DNA of 64,000 nt, from the NCBI RefSeq assembly GCF_028867935.1, contig NZ_JAPQNS010000003.1, positions 1 through 64,000 of the forward strand, given 5' to 3'. Each line of letters starts with the position of its first letter. Within the stretch, counting starts at the first letter, position 1. The translations under genes and the position numbers were made by a program. The notes beneath the pieces were generated by a model. The model worked only from the letters and a program-made list of their open reading frames with translations. It was not told the origin of the DNA and made no database searches. This DNA is from Flavobacterium sp. SUN052. GTDB lineage: Bacteria > Bacteroidota > Bacteroidia > Flavobacteriales > Flavobacteriaceae. Shown here piece after piece: positions 1 to 6,972 of the stretch.

Positions 1-1
1 G

Positions 2-112
2 TTGGTGGTGATAAGGCGGGTGGACACCTTTTTCCATGTCGAACAGAGCCGTTAAGCCCCGTGCTGCCGATGGTACTGGAGTCAGATCCGGGAGAGTAGG
101 AAGCTGCCACCT
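2..112 (+). rRNA. rrf: 5S ribosomal RNA
   Basis: The stretch shows the conserved 5S core (a GAAC box, then GTTAAGCCCC and GATGGTACTG), and its two ends are complementary (GGTGGT near the start, GCCACC near position 111), forming helix I. The window begins almost exactly at its 5' end, so up to a few bases may be missing. It is presumably the last gene of a 16S-23S-5S operon lying to the left. The 3' end is placed by pairing and may be off by 1-3 nt. Confidence 0.92.
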
Positions 113-129
113 CTACTATTGAGAGTGAG

Positions 130-170
130 AAGTCTTCTGGACAATTTGTTCAGAAGACTTTTTTGTTTTT
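130..170 (+). terminator. rRNA operon terminator
   Basis: A perfect 10-bp stem (130-139 with 151-160, AAGTCTTCTG/CAGAAGACTT) closes an 11-nt loop and runs into a T-rich tract at 159-170. It lies 18 nt after the 5S rRNA and fits an intrinsic terminator of the rRNA transcript. Confidence 0.85.
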
Positions 171-181
171 ATACCTTCAAT

Positions 182-189
182 TATCTTTG
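182..189 (+). promoter_or_regulatory. Bacteroidota -7 promoter element for tRNA-Pro and probably the trp leader
   Basis: TATCTTTG matches the Bacteroidota -7 consensus TAnnTTTG exactly and lies 10 nt before the tRNA 5' end. A TTTG at 162-165 could be the -33 element, but the 16-nt spacing is shorter than usual. No other TAnnTTTG match is seen between here and the trp leader peptide, so this may also drive the trp operon (inference). Confidence 0.6.
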
Positions 190-198
190 CAAAAGATT

Positions 199-272
199 CG
201 GGGTGTAGCGCAGCTTGGTAGCGCGCTACGTTCGGGACGTAGAGGTCGTGGGTTCGAATCCCGCCACCCCGA
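199..272 (+). tRNA. tRNA-Pro (anticodon CGG)
   Basis: A 74-nt cloverleaf can be drawn: acceptor CGGGGTG/CACCCCG with discriminator A, D arm GCGC/GCGC, anticodon stem CTACG/CGTAG around the loop TTCGGGA (anticodon CGG, purine 37 = G), and a T arm with GGTTCGAATCC. The C1-G72 pair with A73 and G37 are typical of tRNA-Pro. No CCA is encoded directly after the discriminator. It lies 15 nt before the trp leader peptide start. Confidence 0.95.
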
Positions 273-287
273 CAAAAAGACATAAAA

Positions 288-341
288 ATGACAACTGTTC
301 AGATTAAATCATGGTGGTGGTGCCTTTCTCGTAAGAGATGA
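288..341 (+). CDS. trpL: trp operon leader peptide (three consecutive Trp codons)
   Basis: A 17-codon reading frame, [17 protein letters not shown], starts with ATG at 288 after an A-rich stretch and ends with TGA at 339-341. Codons 9-11 (312-320) are TGG TGG TGG, a run far beyond chance in so short a frame and directly upstream of trpE. Its role, by analogy with enterobacterial TrpL, is to sense charged tRNA-Trp: a ribosome stalled on the Trp codons leaves the downstream RNA free to form an antiterminator. The peptide itself is probably not functional. It is too short for ordinary gene calling. Confidence is high because the frame, the stop position and the downstream pairings fit together. 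Confidence 0.88.
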
Positions 342-405
342 GGTTGCTGCTTTGTGCTATCTGATTGATATTATAAAAGCCTACCGTCATCTCGGTGGGC
401 TTTTT
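327..405 (+). promoter_or_regulatory. trp attenuator (pause hairpin, antiterminator, terminator)
   Basis: Three competing pairings are visible. Segment 1:2 is TCTC 327-330 with GAGA 335-338 around a GTAA loop. Segment 2:3 is GAGATGA 335-341 with TCATCTC 387-393, a perfect 7-bp antiterminator. Segment 3:4 is GCCTACCG 379-386 with CGGTGGGC 393-400, followed by TTTTT 401-405, an intrinsic terminator. The 2:3 helix uses the terminator loop and the first base of its 3' arm, so the two cannot coexist. Segment 2 overlaps the leader stop codon: a ribosome that finishes translation masks it and permits termination, while one stalled at 312-320 leaves it free. The mechanism is inferred from the sequence. 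Confidence 0.82.
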
Positions 406-448
406 GCATTTTAGACATTTCAAGTCTCTAACACCTTTTGCTTTCAAT

Positions 449-1888
449 ATGATTACTGAAAAACACAAAGTTCAAGCCTATAGGATCAAAACGAATTATA
501 GGCGCATGTTGGCTGATATTATAACTCCCGTCAGCATTTATCTGCGTATTAGAGATCGTTTTCCAACTAGCATCTTGTTGGAAAGTGCTGATTATCATGG
601 TAATGATAATAGCTTTTCTTATGTCGCTTTCGATCCGGTTAGTCGGTTTGAATTTCATAACGACACCTTAAAAGTACAGTTACCTGGGCAAATCGAAGAA
701 GTTAGATATGCTTCAGTAAGGGATTTAGTTCCTGCTTTACAGCAGTACAAATCTCATTTTCAAGCAGAAACTCTGAAACACCCATTTATTACAAATGGCT
801 TGTTCGGTTATTTTGGTTTTTCGGCAGTTGAGGGCTTTGAAGATATAAAGTTAAATGCCCCTATTCCTGCAGAGAATGATATCCCGGCTGCTATATTTCA
901 AGTATACCGCTATGTAATTGCAATCAACCATTTTAAGGATGAACTGCATCTTTTTGAACATTCATACATACTTGAAGGAGAGACTGAGCCAGAAAGTCGC
1001 CTAGACGAGATCGCATCTATCATTACCAGTCGAAATTTTGCTCTATATACATTTGAAACAACTGGAAATGAGACCTCCAATTTTTCAGATGATGAATTTA
1101 GAGGAGTTATTCAACATGGAATAGACCATTGCAAAAGGGGAGACGTATTTCAAATTGTATTATCCCGTCGTTTCCAGACTCCTTTCCGAGGAGATGAATT
1201 CAACGTTTATAGGGCTTTACGTTCACTGAATCCGTCTCCCTATCTTTTCTATTTTGATTATGGAAGTTTCAAACTGTTTGGTTCATCTCCAGAGTCGCAG
1301 ATCGTAGTGAAAAATGGAGAAGCCACTATCTATCCAATTGCCGGAACGTTTCGACGAACAGGGGATGATGCAAAAGATGCCGAGCTAGCTCAAAAACTAT
1401 ATGACGATCCTAAAGAGTCGGCTGAACATGTAATGTTAGTTGATTTGGCAAGAAACGATTTGAGCCGGAACTGCGACAAAGTGGAGGTTGAGACCTTTAA
1501 AGAGGTTCAATACTATTCACATGTTATTCACCTAGTCTCGAAAGTTGTGGGACAGTTGAATAAAAAGGCAGATCCGCTACAGATCGTTGCGGAAACATTT
1601 CCGGCCGGCACGTTATCAGGGGCACCGAAGTACATGGCCATGCACTTGATTGATCAATATGAAAACCAGAGTAGGGGCTTTTATTCAGGCAGTATAGGCT
1701 ATATGGGTTTCGATGGTGAATTTAATCATGCTATTATGATTCGGACGTTTATGAGCCATAATAATGCGCTTCATTATCAAGCAGGAGCCGGTATAGTAGC
1801 AAAATCGTCAGTAGAAAGTGAATTACAGGAAGTACATAATAAGCTAGCTGCTTTACGGTCGGCAATTGATCAGGCAAAGACGTTATAA
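449..1888 (+). CDS. trpE: anthranilate synthase component I (TrpE)
   Basis: The aminating subunit of anthranilate synthase, which converts chorismate to anthranilate with ammonia supplied by TrpG. The 479-residue protein from ATG 449 has the chorismate-utilising fold: GDVFQIVLSRRF, SSPESQ, PIAGTFRR, LVDLARNDLSRNCD, FPAGTLSGAPK and the C-terminal AGAGIVAKSSVESEL. Near the N terminus, LLES is the element that binds tryptophan in feedback-inhibited TrpE enzymes, so allosteric control is likely on top of attenuation. A longer frame opens at GTG 395, but this lies inside the attenuator terminator and the extra residues do not resemble TrpE; ATG 449 gives the normal N terminus. First gene of a seven-gene trp operon. 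Confidence 0.97.
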   Translation: MITEKHKVQAYRIKTNYRRMLADIITPVSIYLRIRDRFPTSILLESADYHGNDNSFSYVAFDPVSRFEFHNDTLKVQLPGQIEEVRYASVRDLVPALQQYKSHFQAETLKHPFITNGLFGYFGFSAVEGFEDIKLNAPIPAENDIPAAIFQVYRYVIAINHFKDELHLFEHSYILEGETEPESRLDEIASIITSRNFALYTFETTGNETSNFSDDEFRGVIQHGIDHCKRGDVFQIVLSRRFQTPFRGDEFNVYRALRSLNPSPYLFYFDYGSFKLFGSSPESQIVVKNGEATIYPIAGTFRRTGDDAKDAELAQKLYDDPKESAEHVMLVDLARNDLSRNCDKVEVETFKEVQYYSHVIHLVSKVVGQLNKKADPLQIVAETFPAGTLSGAPKYMAMHLIDQYENQSRGFYSGSIGYMGFDGEFNHAIMIRTFMSHNNALHYQAGAGIVAKSSVESELQEVHNKLAALRSAIDQAKTL

Positions 1889-1905: not shown

Positions 1906-2472
1906 ATGAAAATTCTTGTTTTAGATAACTACGATTCATTTACGTACAACCTCGTGTATATACTGCGCGAGTTGGGGCATGAGCCTGACGTAATAAGGAA
2001 TGATAAGATAATCGTAGAAGCTGTTGTCCAATACGACAAAATTTTGTTGTCACCCGGTCCAGGAATACCTTCTGAAGCGGGTATCCTTCAAGATTTGGTT
2101 AGGGAGTATGCTCCTACAAAGTCGATTATGGGGGTATGCTTAGGCCATCAGGGAATTGGTGAGGTTTTCGGAGCAACATTAGAAAACCTTGGCGATGTAT
2201 TACACGGTGTAGCTCATCAGGCGTACGTTTTGGATCGTGATGAATACCTCTTCGATGGGCTACCGGATGATCTGACAGTTGGCCGCTACCATTCGTGGTC
2301 AGTTGTACGGAATTCGATTCCGGCTGATTTAAAGATCACTGCCGAAGACGAAGGAGGCCGGATTATGGGTCTGCGACATATTCGTTACGATGTGCGTGGG
2401 GTGCAGTTTCATCCAGAGTCTGTATTGACAGTAGGTGGCGTAAAAATGATGGAAAACTGGGTAAATCAATGA
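1906..2472 (+). CDS. trpG: anthranilate synthase component II, glutamine amidotransferase (TrpG)
   Basis: Class I glutamine amidotransferase subunit that delivers ammonia from glutamine to TrpE. At 188 aa it has the usual length of a stand-alone TrpG not fused to TrpD. Visible motifs: LDNYDSFTYN at the N terminus, the oxyanion strand LLSPGPGIP (about 48-56), the nucleophile elbow GVCLGHQ with Cys78, and HPES with His169 and Glu171 completing the triad. It begins 17 nt after trpE and its last four bases (ATGA) overlap the trpD start, implying translational coupling. Confidence 0.97.
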   Translation: MKILVLDNYDSFTYNLVYILRELGHEPDVIRNDKIIVEAVVQYDKILLSPGPGIPSEAGILQDLVREYAPTKSIMGVCLGHQGIGEVFGATLENLGDVLHGVAHQAYVLDRDEYLFDGLPDDLTVGRYHSWSVVRNSIPADLKITAEDEGGRIMGLRHIRYDVRGVQFHPESVLTVGGVKMMENWVNQ

Positions 2473-3455
2473 AAGAGATACTGAACCACCTTTTTGAGCA
2501 CAAAACACTGTCGAAAGAACAGGCACGTGATATACTGCTTGGAATCGGCCGGGGTGATTACAATACGGCTCAGATTGCCTCCTTTCTGACAGTGTACATG
2601 ATGCGAAGCATTCGTGTAGAAGAGCTAGAAGGATTTCGGGATGCCATGCTGGAATTGTGTTTACCAATAGACTTGTCAGCGTATGATCCGATGGATTTGT
2701 GCGGGACTGGCGGTGATGGTAAAGACACATTCAATATCTCAACGCTGTCAGCATTTGTGGTGGCAGGAGCGGGCCAACGAGTGGCTAAACACGGCAATCA
2801 TGGCGTCTCCTCTATGTGCGGTTCATCGACGGTAATGGACTATCTGGGGTACAAATTCACGAACGATTTGGATGAATTGGAACGTCGGATTGAAACAGCA
2901 GGAATCTGTTTTTTACATGCACCGTTGTTTCACCCTGCGATGAAGAACATTGCACCAATTCGGCGCGATTTGGGAGTAAAAACATTTTTCAATGTGCTGG
3001 GGCCAATGGTTAATCCAGCAAAGCCCCAAAAACAGCTCGTTGGCGTATTTAATCTTGAAATAGCGCGATTATATGCGTATCTTTATCAGCAAACTGATAA
3101 ACAGTTTATGATTCTTCACACGCTTGATGGCTATGATGAAGTTTCATTGACGGGTTCATTCAAGGTGATTACAAACCGTAGTGAACAATTACTGAGCCCG
3201 GCTGAATTAGGGTTAGATACACAAACACCAGAGTCGTTGTCGGGTGGTAATACAGTTGCAGAATCAGCACAGATATTTATGGATGTGCTGAAAAACGAGT
3301 CTACAACGGCTCAAAAACAAGCTGTGTTGGCGAATGCCGCGATGGCATTACTTGCAACTGACCGGGCTGCAACTCGTGAGGAGGCAGTGGCTTTAGCCAG
3401 AGAATCAATAGATAGCGGACGCGCTTTAGAGTGTTTTACCAAGTTAGTTGCCTGA
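2469..3455 (+). CDS. trpD: anthranilate phosphoribosyltransferase (TrpD)
   Basis: Transfers the phosphoribosyl group of PRPP to anthranilate. The 328-aa protein shows the PRPP-binding CGTGGDGKDTFNIST, the KHGNHGVSS segment, NVLGPMVNPA and the HTLDGYDEVSLTG region near residues 220-235, all typical of TrpD. It overlaps trpG by 4 nt and is followed by trpC after 14 nt, so it is part of one transcript. No unusual feature was seen. Confidence 0.97.
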   Translation: MKEILNHLFEHKTLSKEQARDILLGIGRGDYNTAQIASFLTVYMMRSIRVEELEGFRDAMLELCLPIDLSAYDPMDLCGTGGDGKDTFNISTLSAFVVAGAGQRVAKHGNHGVSSMCGSSTVMDYLGYKFTNDLDELERRIETAGICFLHAPLFHPAMKNIAPIRRDLGVKTFFNVLGPMVNPAKPQKQLVGVFNLEIARLYAYLYQQTDKQFMILHTLDGYDEVSLTGSFKVITNRSEQLLSPAELGLDTQTPESLSGGNTVAESAQIFMDVLKNESTTAQKQAVLANAAMALLATDRAATREEAVALARESIDSGRALECFTKLVA

Positions 3456-3469
3456 GTTCCACCAAACGG

Positions 3470-4288
3470 ATGACTATTTTAGATCGAATTATTGCCGAAA
3501 AACGAGTTGAAGTGGCCCAGCGCCGGGCAACAGTTTCGGAGCGGGCATTGGAAGATTACCCCCAATTCAATCGTACCGTAAATTCGGCAGTTGCGTCCAT
3601 TCGGGCCGCCAATTCAACAGGAATCATCGCTGAGTTTAAGCGAAAATCTCCCTCAAAAGGACTTATCAACGGAACAGCCGATGTATCAATAACAACGCAA
3701 GGCTATGTTCAGGCAGGAGCGGCTTGTTTGTCAGTATTGACGGATGAGCCGTTTTTTGGTGGCACCCCTACCGATCTGCAACTTGCCCGACAGGCTAATC
3801 CGTCAACACCCATTCTCCGTAAGGATTTTGTAATTGATACTTATCAACTGCTGGAAGCTAAAGCCTGGGGTGCTGATCTGATATTGCTGATTGCTGCTTG
3901 TTTATCGCCCGAAGAAGTGATGAATCTGAGTCAGTTCGCGCACCATTTGGGCCTGGAAGTTCTTCTGGAAGTACATGATGCGGATGAGCTGAATCGGAGC
4001 CTATGCGACACCGTTGATCTAGTGGGCGTGAACAACCGCAACTTGAAAACATTTGAGACGTCTGTGGAGACATCCATTCAATTGGTTGATCAGATACCGG
4101 ACTCGTTTGTGCGGGTAACAGAAAGTGGTTTACAGGATGCAGCTACCATACTTCGCTTGCAGGAAGCTGGTTATGATGCATTTCTGATTGGTGAAACATT
4201 TATGAAAACGACGGCTCCCGAAGTGGCTTTAGCAGCATTGGTGGGTCAATTGAGAGCGAAACAAACATCTACCCTTTTTAACAAATAG
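3470..4288 (+). CDS. trpC: indole-3-glycerol phosphate synthase (TrpC)
   Basis: Ring closure and decarboxylation of CdRP to indole-3-glycerol phosphate. The 272-aa (beta/alpha)8 barrel from ATG 3470 contains IIAEFKRKSPSKG (catalytic Lys region), LSVLTDEPFFGG, PILRKDFVIDTYQ, VGVNNRNLKTF and ESGL, the standard family signatures. An in-frame upstream ATG at 3431 lies within trpD and would add 13 non-homologous residues, so the internal ATG is preferred. It is not fused to TrpF, unlike in E. coli; trpF follows 4 nt later. Confidence 0.96.
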   Translation: MTILDRIIAEKRVEVAQRRATVSERALEDYPQFNRTVNSAVASIRAANSTGIIAEFKRKSPSKGLINGTADVSITTQGYVQAGAACLSVLTDEPFFGGTPTDLQLARQANPSTPILRKDFVIDTYQLLEAKAWGADLILLIAACLSPEEVMNLSQFAHHLGLEVLLEVHDADELNRSLCDTVDLVGVNNRNLKTFETSVETSIQLVDQIPDSFVRVTESGLQDAATILRLQEAGYDAFLIGETFMKTTAPEVALAALVGQLRAKQTSTLFNK

Positions 4289-4292
4289 CCGT

Positions 4293-4937
4293 ATGAACGT
4301 CAAAGTGTGTGGTCTGCGCGATGCCGAAAATCTGAGCGAAGTGGCGGCTCTGAATCCCGATTTTGTAGGGTTCATTTTTTACGACGAAAGCCCACGCTTT
4401 GTGGGCGAGACGTTGGATGTTGATGTAGTACGGGCTTTACCAAGATCGATTCGTAAAGTGGGGGTGTTTGTGAATGCTAGTCCAGAGTCGATTATTCGGA
4501 ACGTGAAGAAGTATAATCTACAGTACGTTCAGCTGCACGGTACCGAAACCCCCGATTTCTGTAAGAATTTACGGATGCGGGGTATCAATATCATTAAGGC
4601 TTTCCGGGTTGATGAATCGTTCAATTTCAGTATGCTCAACAACTACAAACATCAGTGCGATTTCTTCCTGTTCGATGCGAAGGGAGCTCAGCCAGGCGGC
4701 AACGGTGTTGCTTTCGACTGGGCTTTGCTCAATAAGTACGACAATGAGAAGCCTTTTTTCATCAGCGGGGGTATTGGCTTGGAGAATATCGCAGATATTG
4801 AACAAATCAGGCATCTGAAACTGTATGGGGTTGATGTAAACAGTCAGGTTGAAGTGTCGCCAGGCGTGAAGGACGTTGAGAAAGTTCGGGAGCTAATTGC
4901 CCGATTGAAGCCAGTTGAAGAGGAAGAAGAGGTGTAA
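4293..4937 (+). CDS. trpF: phosphoribosylanthranilate isomerase (TrpF)
   Basis: Amadori rearrangement of PRA to CdRP. The 214-aa barrel starts with VKVCGLRDAEN, carrying the catalytic Cys (KVCGL), followed by VGFIFYDESPRFV, VQLHGTETPDFC, FLFDAKGAQPGGNGVAFDW with the catalytic Asp in LFDAK, and FFISGGIGLENI for phosphate binding. The C terminus ends in an acidic stretch of six glutamates and a valine. It lies between trpC (4-nt gap) and trpB (10-nt gap). Confidence 0.96.
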   Translation: MNVKVCGLRDAENLSEVAALNPDFVGFIFYDESPRFVGETLDVDVVRALPRSIRKVGVFVNASPESIIRNVKKYNLQYVQLHGTETPDFCKNLRMRGINIIKAFRVDESFNFSMLNNYKHQCDFFLFDAKGAQPGGNGVAFDWALLNKYDNEKPFFISGGIGLENIADIEQIRHLKLYGVDVNSQVEVSPGVKDVEKVRELIARLKPVEEEEEV

Positions 4938-4947
4938 TAAACTCGTT

Positions 4948-6144
4948 ATGACTGTTGTAGAAACACAAACCTCATTTGAGGTCACGAATAAAGGCTTTTA
5001 TGGCCGCTTTGGGGGAGCCTTCATCCCTGAAATGCTGTACCCAAATGTTGAAGAGCTTCGGCAGAATTACCTGGCCATAATGAGCGATCCAGCCTTTCAG
5101 GCTGAGTTTCGCGCATTGTTGAAGGATTACGTTGGCAGACCAACGCCCTTGTTTTTAGCAGAGCGACTGTCGAACGAGATTGGTGCCACGGTTTACCTGA
5201 AGCGTGAAGACCTGTGCCATACGGGGGCGCATAAAGTGAACAATACGATTGGCCAAATTCTGATTGCAAAACGACTCAACAAGAAGCGGATTGTGGCTGA
5301 AACCGGTGCTGGTCAGCACGGAGTGGCTACGGCTACAGTTTGTGCGCTGATGGGTCTTGAGTGCGTAGTGTATATGGGTTCTATTGACATGAAACGTCAG
5401 CAGCCCAATGTGGACCGGATGCGGATGCTTGGGGCCACGGTTGTTCCGGCAACGAGCGGCAGTCAAACCCTGAAGGATGCAACAAATGAGGCAATGCGTC
5501 ACTGGATTAATAATCCGGTAGATACGCACTATATTATTGGCTCGGTTGTGGGACCGCACCCATACCCTGATATGGTGGCTCGGTTTCAGTCAATTATTTC
5601 GGAGGAAATAAAACTACAATTGCATGAAAAAACAGGTCGCAAAAACCCCGACTATGTAGTTGCTTGCGTAGGCGGAGGTAGCAATGCAGCTGGAGCGTTT
5701 TTTCATTATTTGGATGAACCGTCGGTCCGATTAGTGGCAGCTGAGGCTGCTGGGTTAGGTGTTTCGTCGGGGCATTCGGCAGCAACAACAGCGTTAGGAA
5801 AGCCAGGTGTTTTGCATGGAAGTCGTACGATTCTGATGCAAACGGAAGATGGTCAAGTAACGGAACCTTACTCAATATCAGCTGGTCTTGATTATCCGGG
5901 TATTGGTCCCTTACACGCACACTTGTTTGATTCGGGGCGGGGTGATTTTTATGCGATTACCGATGATGAAGCCATTCAGGCCGGTTTTCAATTGAGCAAA
6001 TTAGAAGGCATTATCCCAGCTATCGAAACAGCTCATGCACTGGCAACACTCCCTAAAATGAATATGCAGGCAAGTGACGTAGCCGTTGTGTGTTTGTCGG
6101 GCCGTGGTGATAAGGATTTGGCAACGTATGCAAAGTACCTGTAA
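4948..6144 (+). CDS. trpB: tryptophan synthase beta chain (TrpB)
   Basis: PLP enzyme that condenses indole with serine. From ATG 4948 the protein is 398 aa, the usual TrpB1 length. GRPTPLFLAERLS is followed by LKREDLCHTGAHKVNN with the PLP lysine at Lys96, then ETGAGQHGVATA, the glycine-rich phosphate loop GGGSNAAG and the C-terminal CLSGRGDKDL. An upstream in-frame ATG (4915) overlaps trpF and adds basic residues not found in TrpB. It pairs with TrpA encoded 18 nt downstream. Confidence 0.97.
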   Translation: MTVVETQTSFEVTNKGFYGRFGGAFIPEMLYPNVEELRQNYLAIMSDPAFQAEFRALLKDYVGRPTPLFLAERLSNEIGATVYLKREDLCHTGAHKVNNTIGQILIAKRLNKKRIVAETGAGQHGVATATVCALMGLECVVYMGSIDMKRQQPNVDRMRMLGATVVPATSGSQTLKDATNEAMRHWINNPVDTHYIIGSVVGPHPYPDMVARFQSIISEEIKLQLHEKTGRKNPDYVVACVGGGSNAAGAFFHYLDEPSVRLVAAEAAGLGVSSGHSAATTALGKPGVLHGSRTILMQTEDGQVTEPYSISAGLDYPGIGPLHAHLFDSGRGDFYAITDDEAIQAGFQLSKLEGIIPAIETAHALATLPKMNMQASDVAVVCLSGRGDKDLATYAKYL

Positions 6145-6162: not shown

Positions 6163-6972
6163 ATGGAATCACAATTGATAGATGTAGAAACTGGTCAGGC
6201 TAATCGGATTACAGCCCTTTTCAACAAAAAAAGCACAGGCTTGCTGAATGTTTATTTCACGGCTGGTTTCCCAAACCTTGGCGATACCACAACGGTACTG
6301 GCAGGATTGCAAGATGCCGGTGTTGATCTGGTTGAAATAGGAATGCCTTATTCGGACCCAGTTGCTGATGGCGAAACTATTCAGCAGAGTAATATGAAGG
6401 CACTGGAAAACGGCATGACGTTAAAAGTGCTGTTTGACCAGTTGGCCGACTGCCGGAACCAAGTGACCGTGCCGATTCTGCTGATGGGTTATATAAATCC
6501 CGTTTTGCAGTTTGGTGTGGAGGCTTTCTGCCAAAAATGCCAGGAAGTGGGCGTAGATGGCGTTATACTGCCCGATCTGCCGCTCGACCTGTATCTGGAT
6601 GAGTACGAATCTATTTTTCGTCAGTACGGCATTTTAAACATCTTTCTGATTACTCCCCAAACTACTGAAGACCGGATCCGACTCATCGACGAACATTCCG
6701 AAGGATTTATTTATATGGTCTCTTCGGCAAGTATAACGGGTTCGGTTAGTGGAGTGAGCGATGAAATGCTTTCTTATTTTGATCGGATCAACGCCATGAA
6801 TTTGCGCAATCCGCGCCTGATTGGTTTTGGTATTAAAGACAACGAAACATTTCAGATGGCCAACCAATATGCTAACGGTGCCATTATTGGCAGTGCATTT
6901 ATCCGGCTTTTGCAGGAAGATGGAGCGGATACCAGCAAAATCAACGAGTTCGTAAAGACTATTAAGGGTTAA
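6163..6972 (+). CDS. trpA: tryptophan synthase alpha chain (TrpA)
   Basis: Cleaves indole-3-glycerol phosphate and channels indole to TrpB. The 269-aa barrel contains LVEIGMPYSDPVADGETIQ, where Glu58 and Asp69 correspond in spacing to the catalytic E49/D60 of E. coli TrpA. The segments MGYINPVLQFG, GVILPDLPLD, IYMVSSASITG and IGFGI are typical. It is the last gene of the operon; a strong terminator follows at 7053. Confidence 0.97.
   Translation: MESQLIDVETGQANRITALFNKKSTGLLNVYFTAGFPNLGDTTTVLAGLQDAGVDLVEIGMPYSDPVADGETIQQSNMKALENGMTLKVLFDQLADCRNQVTVPILLMGYINPVLQFGVEAFCQKCQEVGVDGVILPDLPLDLYLDEYESIFRQYGILNIFLITPQTTEDRIRLIDEHSEGFIYMVSSASITGSVSGVSDEMLSYFDRINAMNLRNPRLIGFGIKDNETFQMANQYANGAIIGSAFIRLLQEDGADTSKINEFVKTIKG

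Follow-up and report, generated by a model that had tools for sequence, protein, structure and literature searches.

The start of the trp operon in a genome deposited as Flavobacterium sp. SUN052, whose genus and family grouping with Flavobacterium relatives is, judged by TrpE identity, probably a label error, raises the question whether a short open reading frame with consecutive Trp codons forms part of a ribosome-mediated attenuator, and from which promoter the transcript under its control would be initiated. The window, i.e., the whole stretch of DNA analyzed here, comprises 64,000 nucleotides (contig NZ_JAPQNS010000003.1, positions 1 to 64,000 of the forward strand). The gene order after the leader is trpEGDCFBA, trpE starting 44 nt after the end of the terminator:

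1..112, + strand: 5S rRNA, end of an rRNA operon (Rfam RF00001, 63.5 bits)
127..163, + strand: intrinsic terminator between the 5S rRNA and the tRNA (17-pair hairpin and T-run)
182..189, + strand: TATCTTTG, a match to the Bacteroidota -7 promoter box TAnnTTTG and the proposed start signal of tRNA-Pro and the trp operon (sole match 5′ of trpE in L092, which is the window's own copy among the loci compared; same place in 41/41 distinct tRNA-Pro loci)
199..273, + strand: tRNA-Pro, anticodon CGG (ARAGORN; Rfam RF00005)
288..341, + strand: trp leader peptide of 17 residues, stop codon TGA at 339-341 (leader ORF; relatives)
312..320, + strand: three consecutive Trp codons (leader ORF)
313..351, + strand: protector hairpin (1:2), pairing 322-330 with 335-338 and 340-344, and 313-318 with 346-351 (minimum-energy fold; 93.8% of cells paired in the 41-sequence alignment of relatives)
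335..344, + strand: antiterminator 5′ strand (segment 2), overlapping the leader stop codon (folding of the ribosome-stalled stretch; alignment of relatives)
383..393, + strand: antiterminator 3′ strand (segment 3), 386 unpaired (folding of the ribosome-stalled stretch; alignment of relatives)
375..404, + strand: terminator hairpin (3:4), T-run 401-405 (terminator search; 100% of cells paired in the 41-sequence alignment, 4 pairs and 14 cells changed on both sides)
449..1888, + strand: trpE (ORF; NCBIfam trpE_most 410.3 bits, below the cut-off of 517.7)
1906..2472, + strand: trpG (TIGR00566, over cut-off)
2469..3455, + strand: trpD (TIGR01245, over cut-off)
3473..4288, + strand: trpC (NF001377, over cut-off)
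4293..4937, + strand: trpF (NF002298 187.4 bits, below the cut-off of 215)
4948..6144, + strand: trpB (TIGR00263, over cut-off)
6163..6972, + strand: trpA (TIGR00262, over cut-off)

A 5S rRNA also lies ahead of the trp operon in L004, L005, L007, L011, L015, L020, L203, and L215 (the last two by reading), an arrangement of Rudanella-, Larkinella-, and Dyadobacter-type genomes; the contigs of several such genomes stop at the 5S rRNA, probably at the rRNA repeat. The TrpE encoded in the window is 84-87% identical to that of Rudanella-type genomes and at most 59% identical to that of genomes with Flavobacterium-like leaders; the close relatives compared here were chosen by way of genome G346.

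The reading of the site in an earlier note on this DNA holds in most of its parts. The leader runs from the ATG at 288 to the TGA at 339-341 with 17 sense codons, among them TGG TGG TGG at 312-320, and carries an A at positions -3 and -6 relative to the ATG, which a study describes as favorable in Flavobacterium johnsoniae (PMC6847099). A TCTC:GAGA pairing (327-330 with 335-338) noted previously is indeed present and constitutes the top of a longer protector hairpin reaching down to the Trp codons at 313-318. The proposed antiterminator, GAGATGA at 335-341 with TCATCTC at 387-393, is likewise correct; it extends to 342-344 with 383-385, and its 5′ strand contains the leader stop codon, as had been claimed. 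A terminator with a T-run at 401-405 stands as well, the stem alone requiring correction from 379-400 to 375-404, with 12 pairs and a loop at 387-392. Since positions 335-344 (less 339) are common to protector and antiterminator, and 383-385 and 393 to antiterminator and terminator, these pairings compete. Folding of the stretch that a ribosome on the Trp codons would leave exposed, minus the 3′ arm of the terminator, pairs 335-344 with 383-393 at -21.7 kcal/mol. The same segment 2:3 pairing is seen by eye in the truncated fold of all 24 sequences inspected, among which L001 and L204 are alike and L214 and L216 show a shifted register, and for which the pairing is favored by construction because the truncated fold omits the rival arms. 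Protector hairpin and terminator coexist in the full minimum-energy fold, and the fold energy of 280-410 (-41.9 kcal/mol) lies well below that of 200 shuffled sequences (-27.4 ± 3.3 kcal/mol; z -4.35), none of which is as low.

Leader and terminator recur upstream of trpE in relatives. Among the best 80 of at least 591 TrpE relatives, an ATG-started ORF with WW or W.W occurs within 600 nt 5′ of trpE in 73 loci, and a leader followed by a hairpin and a T-run precedes trpE in 73 of the 80, 71 of these leaders starting with ATG and two (L062, L071) with another codon. The seven loci that did not pass are heterogeneous: by eye, L043 has a single-Trp ORF and a terminator; L049 has a hairpin, and the alternative leader ORF proposed for it by the script was rejected as spurious; L054 has a leader and, by eye, a hairpin whose loop exceeds the filter; L070 and L075, whose upstream regions were read, have trpE without such a leader or hairpin; the contig of L077 is too short; and L078 has a leader followed by masked sequence. 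A second set, which overlaps the first in that it contains L092 and species already present there, yields leader and terminator before trpE in 172 of 174 loci (L105 with a non-ATG start). Here, L240 has trpE without such a leader, and in L258 an apparent trpB end directly precedes trpE, the WW leader ORF sitting before trpB. In a sample of the phylum, 70 of 296 genomes encode a TrpE at E <= 1e-100, and 68 of these 70, all of which were read, have the arrangement before trpE. Three of the searches for relatives contributed 30 loci each, taken from 60 genomes, from 37 hits, and from 79 genomes with a match, respectively.

Taken together, the two sets yield 234 distinct units of leader and terminator; WW occurs in 232 of them and WWW, the frame for which the earlier note had suggested looking upstream of trpE, in 206. 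A leader with ATG start and WW, a hairpin, and a T-run occur jointly in 229 of the 234 native upstream regions, selected beforehand for the presence of leader and hairpin, and in none of 234 reverse complements or 234 dinucleotide shuffles; the WW ORF alone occurs in 229, 5, and 4 of these regions, respectively. A covariance model built from relatives, R1, finds only the window as a strong match in the window genome (78.3 bits, the window being part of the training set), 150 of 1843 first-look candidates having been scored; the next matches, L271 and L272 (29.8 and 25.6 bits), look like terminators after other genes and were discarded. R1 matches the leader at E <= 0.01 in 19 of 21 loci outside the training set (not in L014 and L033); as it also matches the opposite strand over terminators, down to E 6e-5, it is not very specific. 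Inspection by eye revealed no His leader before hisG in the window genome. As a separate observation, six loci (L016, L018, L050, L055, L142, L144) carry tandem trp attenuators, i.e., a WW leader and a hairpin twice before trpE; in the first four, only the first leader has a promoter box within 120 nt; no box was found in L142 and L144, and in L050 and L055 the T-run of the first hairpin is poor.

In 74 leaders, the segment 2:3 duplex has a mean energy of -16.1 kcal/mol with its own partner vs. -11.5 kcal/mol with those of other leaders, and segment 2 performs better than its shuffled versions at p <= 0.05 in 54 of the 74, p lying above 0.05 in the other 20. No special fit is seen in the Hymenobacter leaders L033, L036, L039, and L046 (z -0.1 to 0.4), the fit is weak in L034, L035, L052, L066, L069, L071, and L076 (z -1.0 to 0.3), and p is 0.085 in L064, itself a member of the Rfam family RF01692. 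When 60 dissimilar leaders are considered, own partners average -14.8 kcal/mol and permuted partners -10.2 kcal/mol (sd 0.35), with none of 20,000 permutations as low; the own partner beats the mean of its row in 56 of 60 leaders and falls into the best tenth of the row in only 30. In 54 of the 60, the 5′ strand of the antiterminator overlaps the region extending 14 nt to each side of the leader stop codon. Within the Spirosoma/Rudanella group, 95.7% of antiterminator cells in the alignment of 41 sequences pair, compared to 26.5-48.1% when the strands are slid. Covariation inside the Spirosoma group had been expected to add support, and hardly any was found: two pairs changed on both sides, which 6 of 500 shuffles reach, and one of them (columns 50/85, C-G to U-A) is the change in the window itself; further pair types are as few as or fewer than in all 500 shuffles, and the covariation score is equaled or exceeded in 105 of 500 shuffles. 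Given this weak signal among near relatives and the permutation result across clades, the antiterminator rests on cross-clade co-change. Of the features by which this class of mechanism is recognized, a leader ORF with a codon run for the regulated amino acid and a stop near segment 2 is thus present, and competing antiterminator and terminator pairings with co-change are found across clades and weakly within the Spirosoma group. The earlier note had named the absence of Trp run and pairings in related genomes as evidence against its reading; instead, Trp leader and terminator are found in 73/80 and 172/174 loci, and the antiterminator is partner-specific across clades.

The sequence parts, their conservation, and the partner-specific fit of the antiterminator across clades are established. 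That the site works by ribosome-mediated trp attenuation of the Bacteroid-trp kind is very likely, and the enterobacterial-type logic claimed before, in which completion of the leader leads to termination, is supported by anatomy and comparison and conserved in relatives. From the sequence we infer ribosome stalling, termination, dependence on charged tRNA-Trp, a start at the tRNA promoter, and processing of the tRNA. RNA polymerase would start just 5′ of the tRNA, at the box at 182-189, and transcribe the tRNA and then the leader. With ample charged tRNA-Trp, the ribosome would reach the TGA at 339-341 and cover segment 2 (335-344), the terminator at 375-404 would form, and the terminated transcript would still yield the tRNA. 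With charged tRNA-Trp in short supply, the ribosome would wait on UGG UGG UGG (312-320), thereby covering segment 1; segment 2 would be free to pair with 383-393, no terminator would form, and trpEGDCFBA would be transcribed.

Other explanations of the leader fare poorly against the same evidence. It is very unlikely that the leader works through translation or Rho-dependent termination instead of an intrinsic hairpin, as hairpin and T-run occupy the same place in 73/80 and 172/174 loci, the stem covaries, and its end lies 44 nt short of trpE. As the first terminator downstream of tRNA-Pro, the hairpin might be regarded as a constitutive terminator of that gene, placed after a chance short ORF and devoid of regulation; yet WW leaders and hairpins occur likewise where no tRNA-Pro is found, none of the 234 reversed or shuffled regions has the parts, and the antiterminator fits its own partner specifically, leaving this explanation barely credible. 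The chance that a T-box or a tryptophan-binding riboswitch is at work appears negligible: no such Rfam family reaches its cut-off in the window or appears in the low-threshold lists for 250-448, and the Rfam T-box model in particular is unmatched, both at its gathering cut-off in the window and at the low threshold.

The tRNA-Pro gene and the start signal that it appears to share with the operon are not mentioned in the earlier note. ARAGORN calls a tRNA within 900 nt 5′ of trpE in 48 of 255 rows, in which species and the window are repeated; all but one are tRNA-Pro (the exception, L059, being tRNA-Trp), and every tRNA-Pro called in the Spirosoma/Rudanella/Larkinella group has the anticodon CGG. 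The gap between tRNA-Pro and the leader ATG is 9-179 nt in this group and 14 nt in the window. With its six fixed bases, the promoter box TAnnTTTG is frequent by chance (about 3 matches per 3.4 kb, counting both strands). In all 41 distinct tRNA-Pro loci, which include the window's copy, it begins 13-19 nt upstream of the tRNA, and it occurs in the gap between tRNA and leader in two of the 41, in both cases inside what reads as a tRNA-like remnant. Where ARAGORN calls no tRNA-Pro, 194 distinct leaders have sufficient upstream sequence; in 158 of them the box is no more than 120 nt from the leader ATG, compared to 19 of 194 mononucleotide-shuffled counterparts. The box therefore belongs to the leader when the tRNA is absent and precedes the tRNA when it is present.

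Decay of the tRNA is informative in this respect. The Spirosoma/Rudanella/Larkinella group contributes 55 loci, or 50 distinct units, and 43 distinct units keep a tRNA-like 3′ end; L192 and L202 have such an end but are not called tRNA by ARAGORN, and L202, the closest relative by TrpE among the matches listed, retains the box and the tRNA 5′ end. The 3′ end is absent in seven (L179, L183, L185, L193, L194, L212, L215), none of which is called by ARAGORN. The box, followed by the first bases of the tRNA as a 5′ relic and then by the leader, is clearly kept in L179, L183, and L185; by reading, box and relic are plausible in L193 and L215 and not clear in L194 and L212. Retention of the box where the tRNA has decayed is as expected if the promoter serves the trp operon.

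The trp operon hence has two conceivable starts. It probably starts at the tRNA promoter, the attenuator also ending the tRNA transcript, and a tRNA-Pro-driven trp unit is likely. In its full form, which we regard as somewhat likely, this reading holds that the trp operon of Spirosoma, Rudanella, and Larkinella lacks a separate promoter and constitutes the second part of a tRNA-Pro(CGG) unit, that the attenuator is both the tRNA terminator and the sole gate of the operon, that 3′ processing of the tRNA makes the 5′ end of the leader mRNA, and that species with a decayed tRNA keep the promoter because the operon needs it. Alternatively, the attenuator may be real and the operon promoter may lie inside or after tRNA-Pro, the tRNA being a mere neighbor whose transcript is ended by processing. 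The tRNA interior is a possible site of such a second promoter, gaps reach 179 nt in some species, and TAnnTTTG is found in 2/41 gaps; however, the gap in the window measures 14 nt, L092 contains no TAnnTTTG between 190 and 449, the box persists in L179, L183, and L185 where the tRNA has decayed, and both gap matches lie in tRNA-like remnants, all of which renders a separate promoter rather unlikely.

A similarity search retrieved two further tRNA-Pro genes in the window genome, reading GGG and UGG, and the leader-linked gene may thus be its only tRNA-Pro(CGG). In L180, L199, L201, L203, L208, and L209 the tRNA-Pro(CGG) measures 91-95 nt rather than 75, the additional bases preceding the T arm, and the gaps between tRNA and leader of, e.g., L003, L048, L174, L177, L182, L188, L190, and L213 contain decayed copies of tRNA-Pro with GC-rich insertions of a similar kind. 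In Xanthocytophaga flavus (L059:2900-2973), a tRNA-Trp(CCA) follows the attenuator terminator at a distance of about 10 nt and precedes trpE, and owing to this position may be made only on read-through; the genome contains a second tRNA-Trp(CCA) with 74% identity.

The assertion that no trp leader of this type had been well described in the phylum cannot be upheld, as RF01692 was catalogued in 2010 and discussed for Flavobacterium psychrophilum in 2019; the present attenuator is not the first description in the phylum. RF01692, the "Bacteroidete tryptophan peptide leader RNA" (Bacteroid-trp), gives the highest bit score for the stretch, although its 28.1 bits at 265-385 (E 0.18) remain below the gathering cut-off of 49, are not significant, and do not confer membership by score. 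By E-value it ranks fourth, rnk_pseudo, FsrA, and a match of the tRNA end to tmRNA being lower. The alignment spans model positions 1 to 131, with six positions marked as non-standard pairs, and the window, from a member of the Bacteroidota, possesses both a short ORF that contains consecutive Trp codons and precedes trp genes, and a protector hairpin reaching from the Trp codons across the leader stop. In the window's own genome, 0/1 is over the cut-off, 150 of 255 first-look candidates having been scored. Among 40 trp loci scanned, the cut-off is exceeded in two, L064 (79.0 bits) and L080 (73.3 bits), at the trp leaders of Flavobacterium and Maribacter and in the same place; both belong to one batch of 20 loci, the other 20 giving none. 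The model stops at the 5′ arm of the terminator and hence holds no antiterminator or terminator pairs. The kind of attenuator is already catalogued in the phylum and its extent is understated, because RF01692 exceeds its cut-off in 2/40 loci compared to leader plus terminator in 73/80 and 172/174. A weak match to RF04312, the "trpB ncRNA motif," at window positions 308-412 (22.3 bits, cut-off 59) may represent another trp leader type.

This extent has wider implications. One study suggested gamma-proteobacteria as the possible origin of amino-acid attenuators, with very few transfers from there (PMC3766115), an idea on which the wide presence of trp leader and terminator reported here bears. 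Leader-peptide systems had by 2010, ermC aside, been shown only in Proteobacteria and Actinobacteria before the Firmicutes case of the paper stating so (PMC2965389). Bacteroidia ribosomes are described as failing to recognize Shine-Dalgarno sequences (PMC9976891), which makes the attenuator a ready test of transcription-translation coupling in this class. The tRNA-Pro link, the tandem attenuators, and the tRNA-Trp behind an attenuator are concrete, testable departures from the known kind. Earlier predictions for the phylum may be contained in a 2008 review by Merino et al. and in Lopatovskaya et al. 2010.

Compared with RF01692, the window shares the phylum, the position before trp genes, an ATG followed by a UGGUGGUG run, and a comparable protector hairpin; it differs by its score under the cut-off and by the upstream tRNA, none being named in the part of the RF01692 description available, which reports the motif for Bacteroidetes (Weinberg et al. 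2010, PMC2864571). One paper describes conservation of the motif ahead of the trp operon in F. psychrophilum and compares it with the E. coli leader (PMC6414381, 2019), and for the amino-acid operons of this species strong indications of upstream attenuation by leader peptides have been reported (PMC9723704, 2021). These accounts resemble the present case in proposing control by leader transcripts upstream of trp or amino-acid operons in a Bacteroidota species, and differ in that the portions available name no upstream tRNA and contain no antiterminator analysis (PMC6414381, PMC9723704). What appears new here is the tRNA-Pro(CGG) gene before the leader with an apparently shared start signal; a narrow literature search found nothing on a link between tRNA-Pro and a trp leader. 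The enterobacterial trp attenuator combines a run of Trp codons in its leader peptide with three pairings that compete and an intrinsic terminator. The window works like it, while leaving the RF00513 Trp_leader model unmatched (17.8 bits, cut-off 41, E 0.23). In E. coli thrU-tufB, a tRNA gene and a protein gene reside on one transcript, and no leader-peptide attenuator is known to lie between them. The tRNA-Pro/trp unit of the window resembles thrU-tufB in placing tRNA and protein genes on one transcript, here a predicted one, and differs in the attenuator that separates the two.
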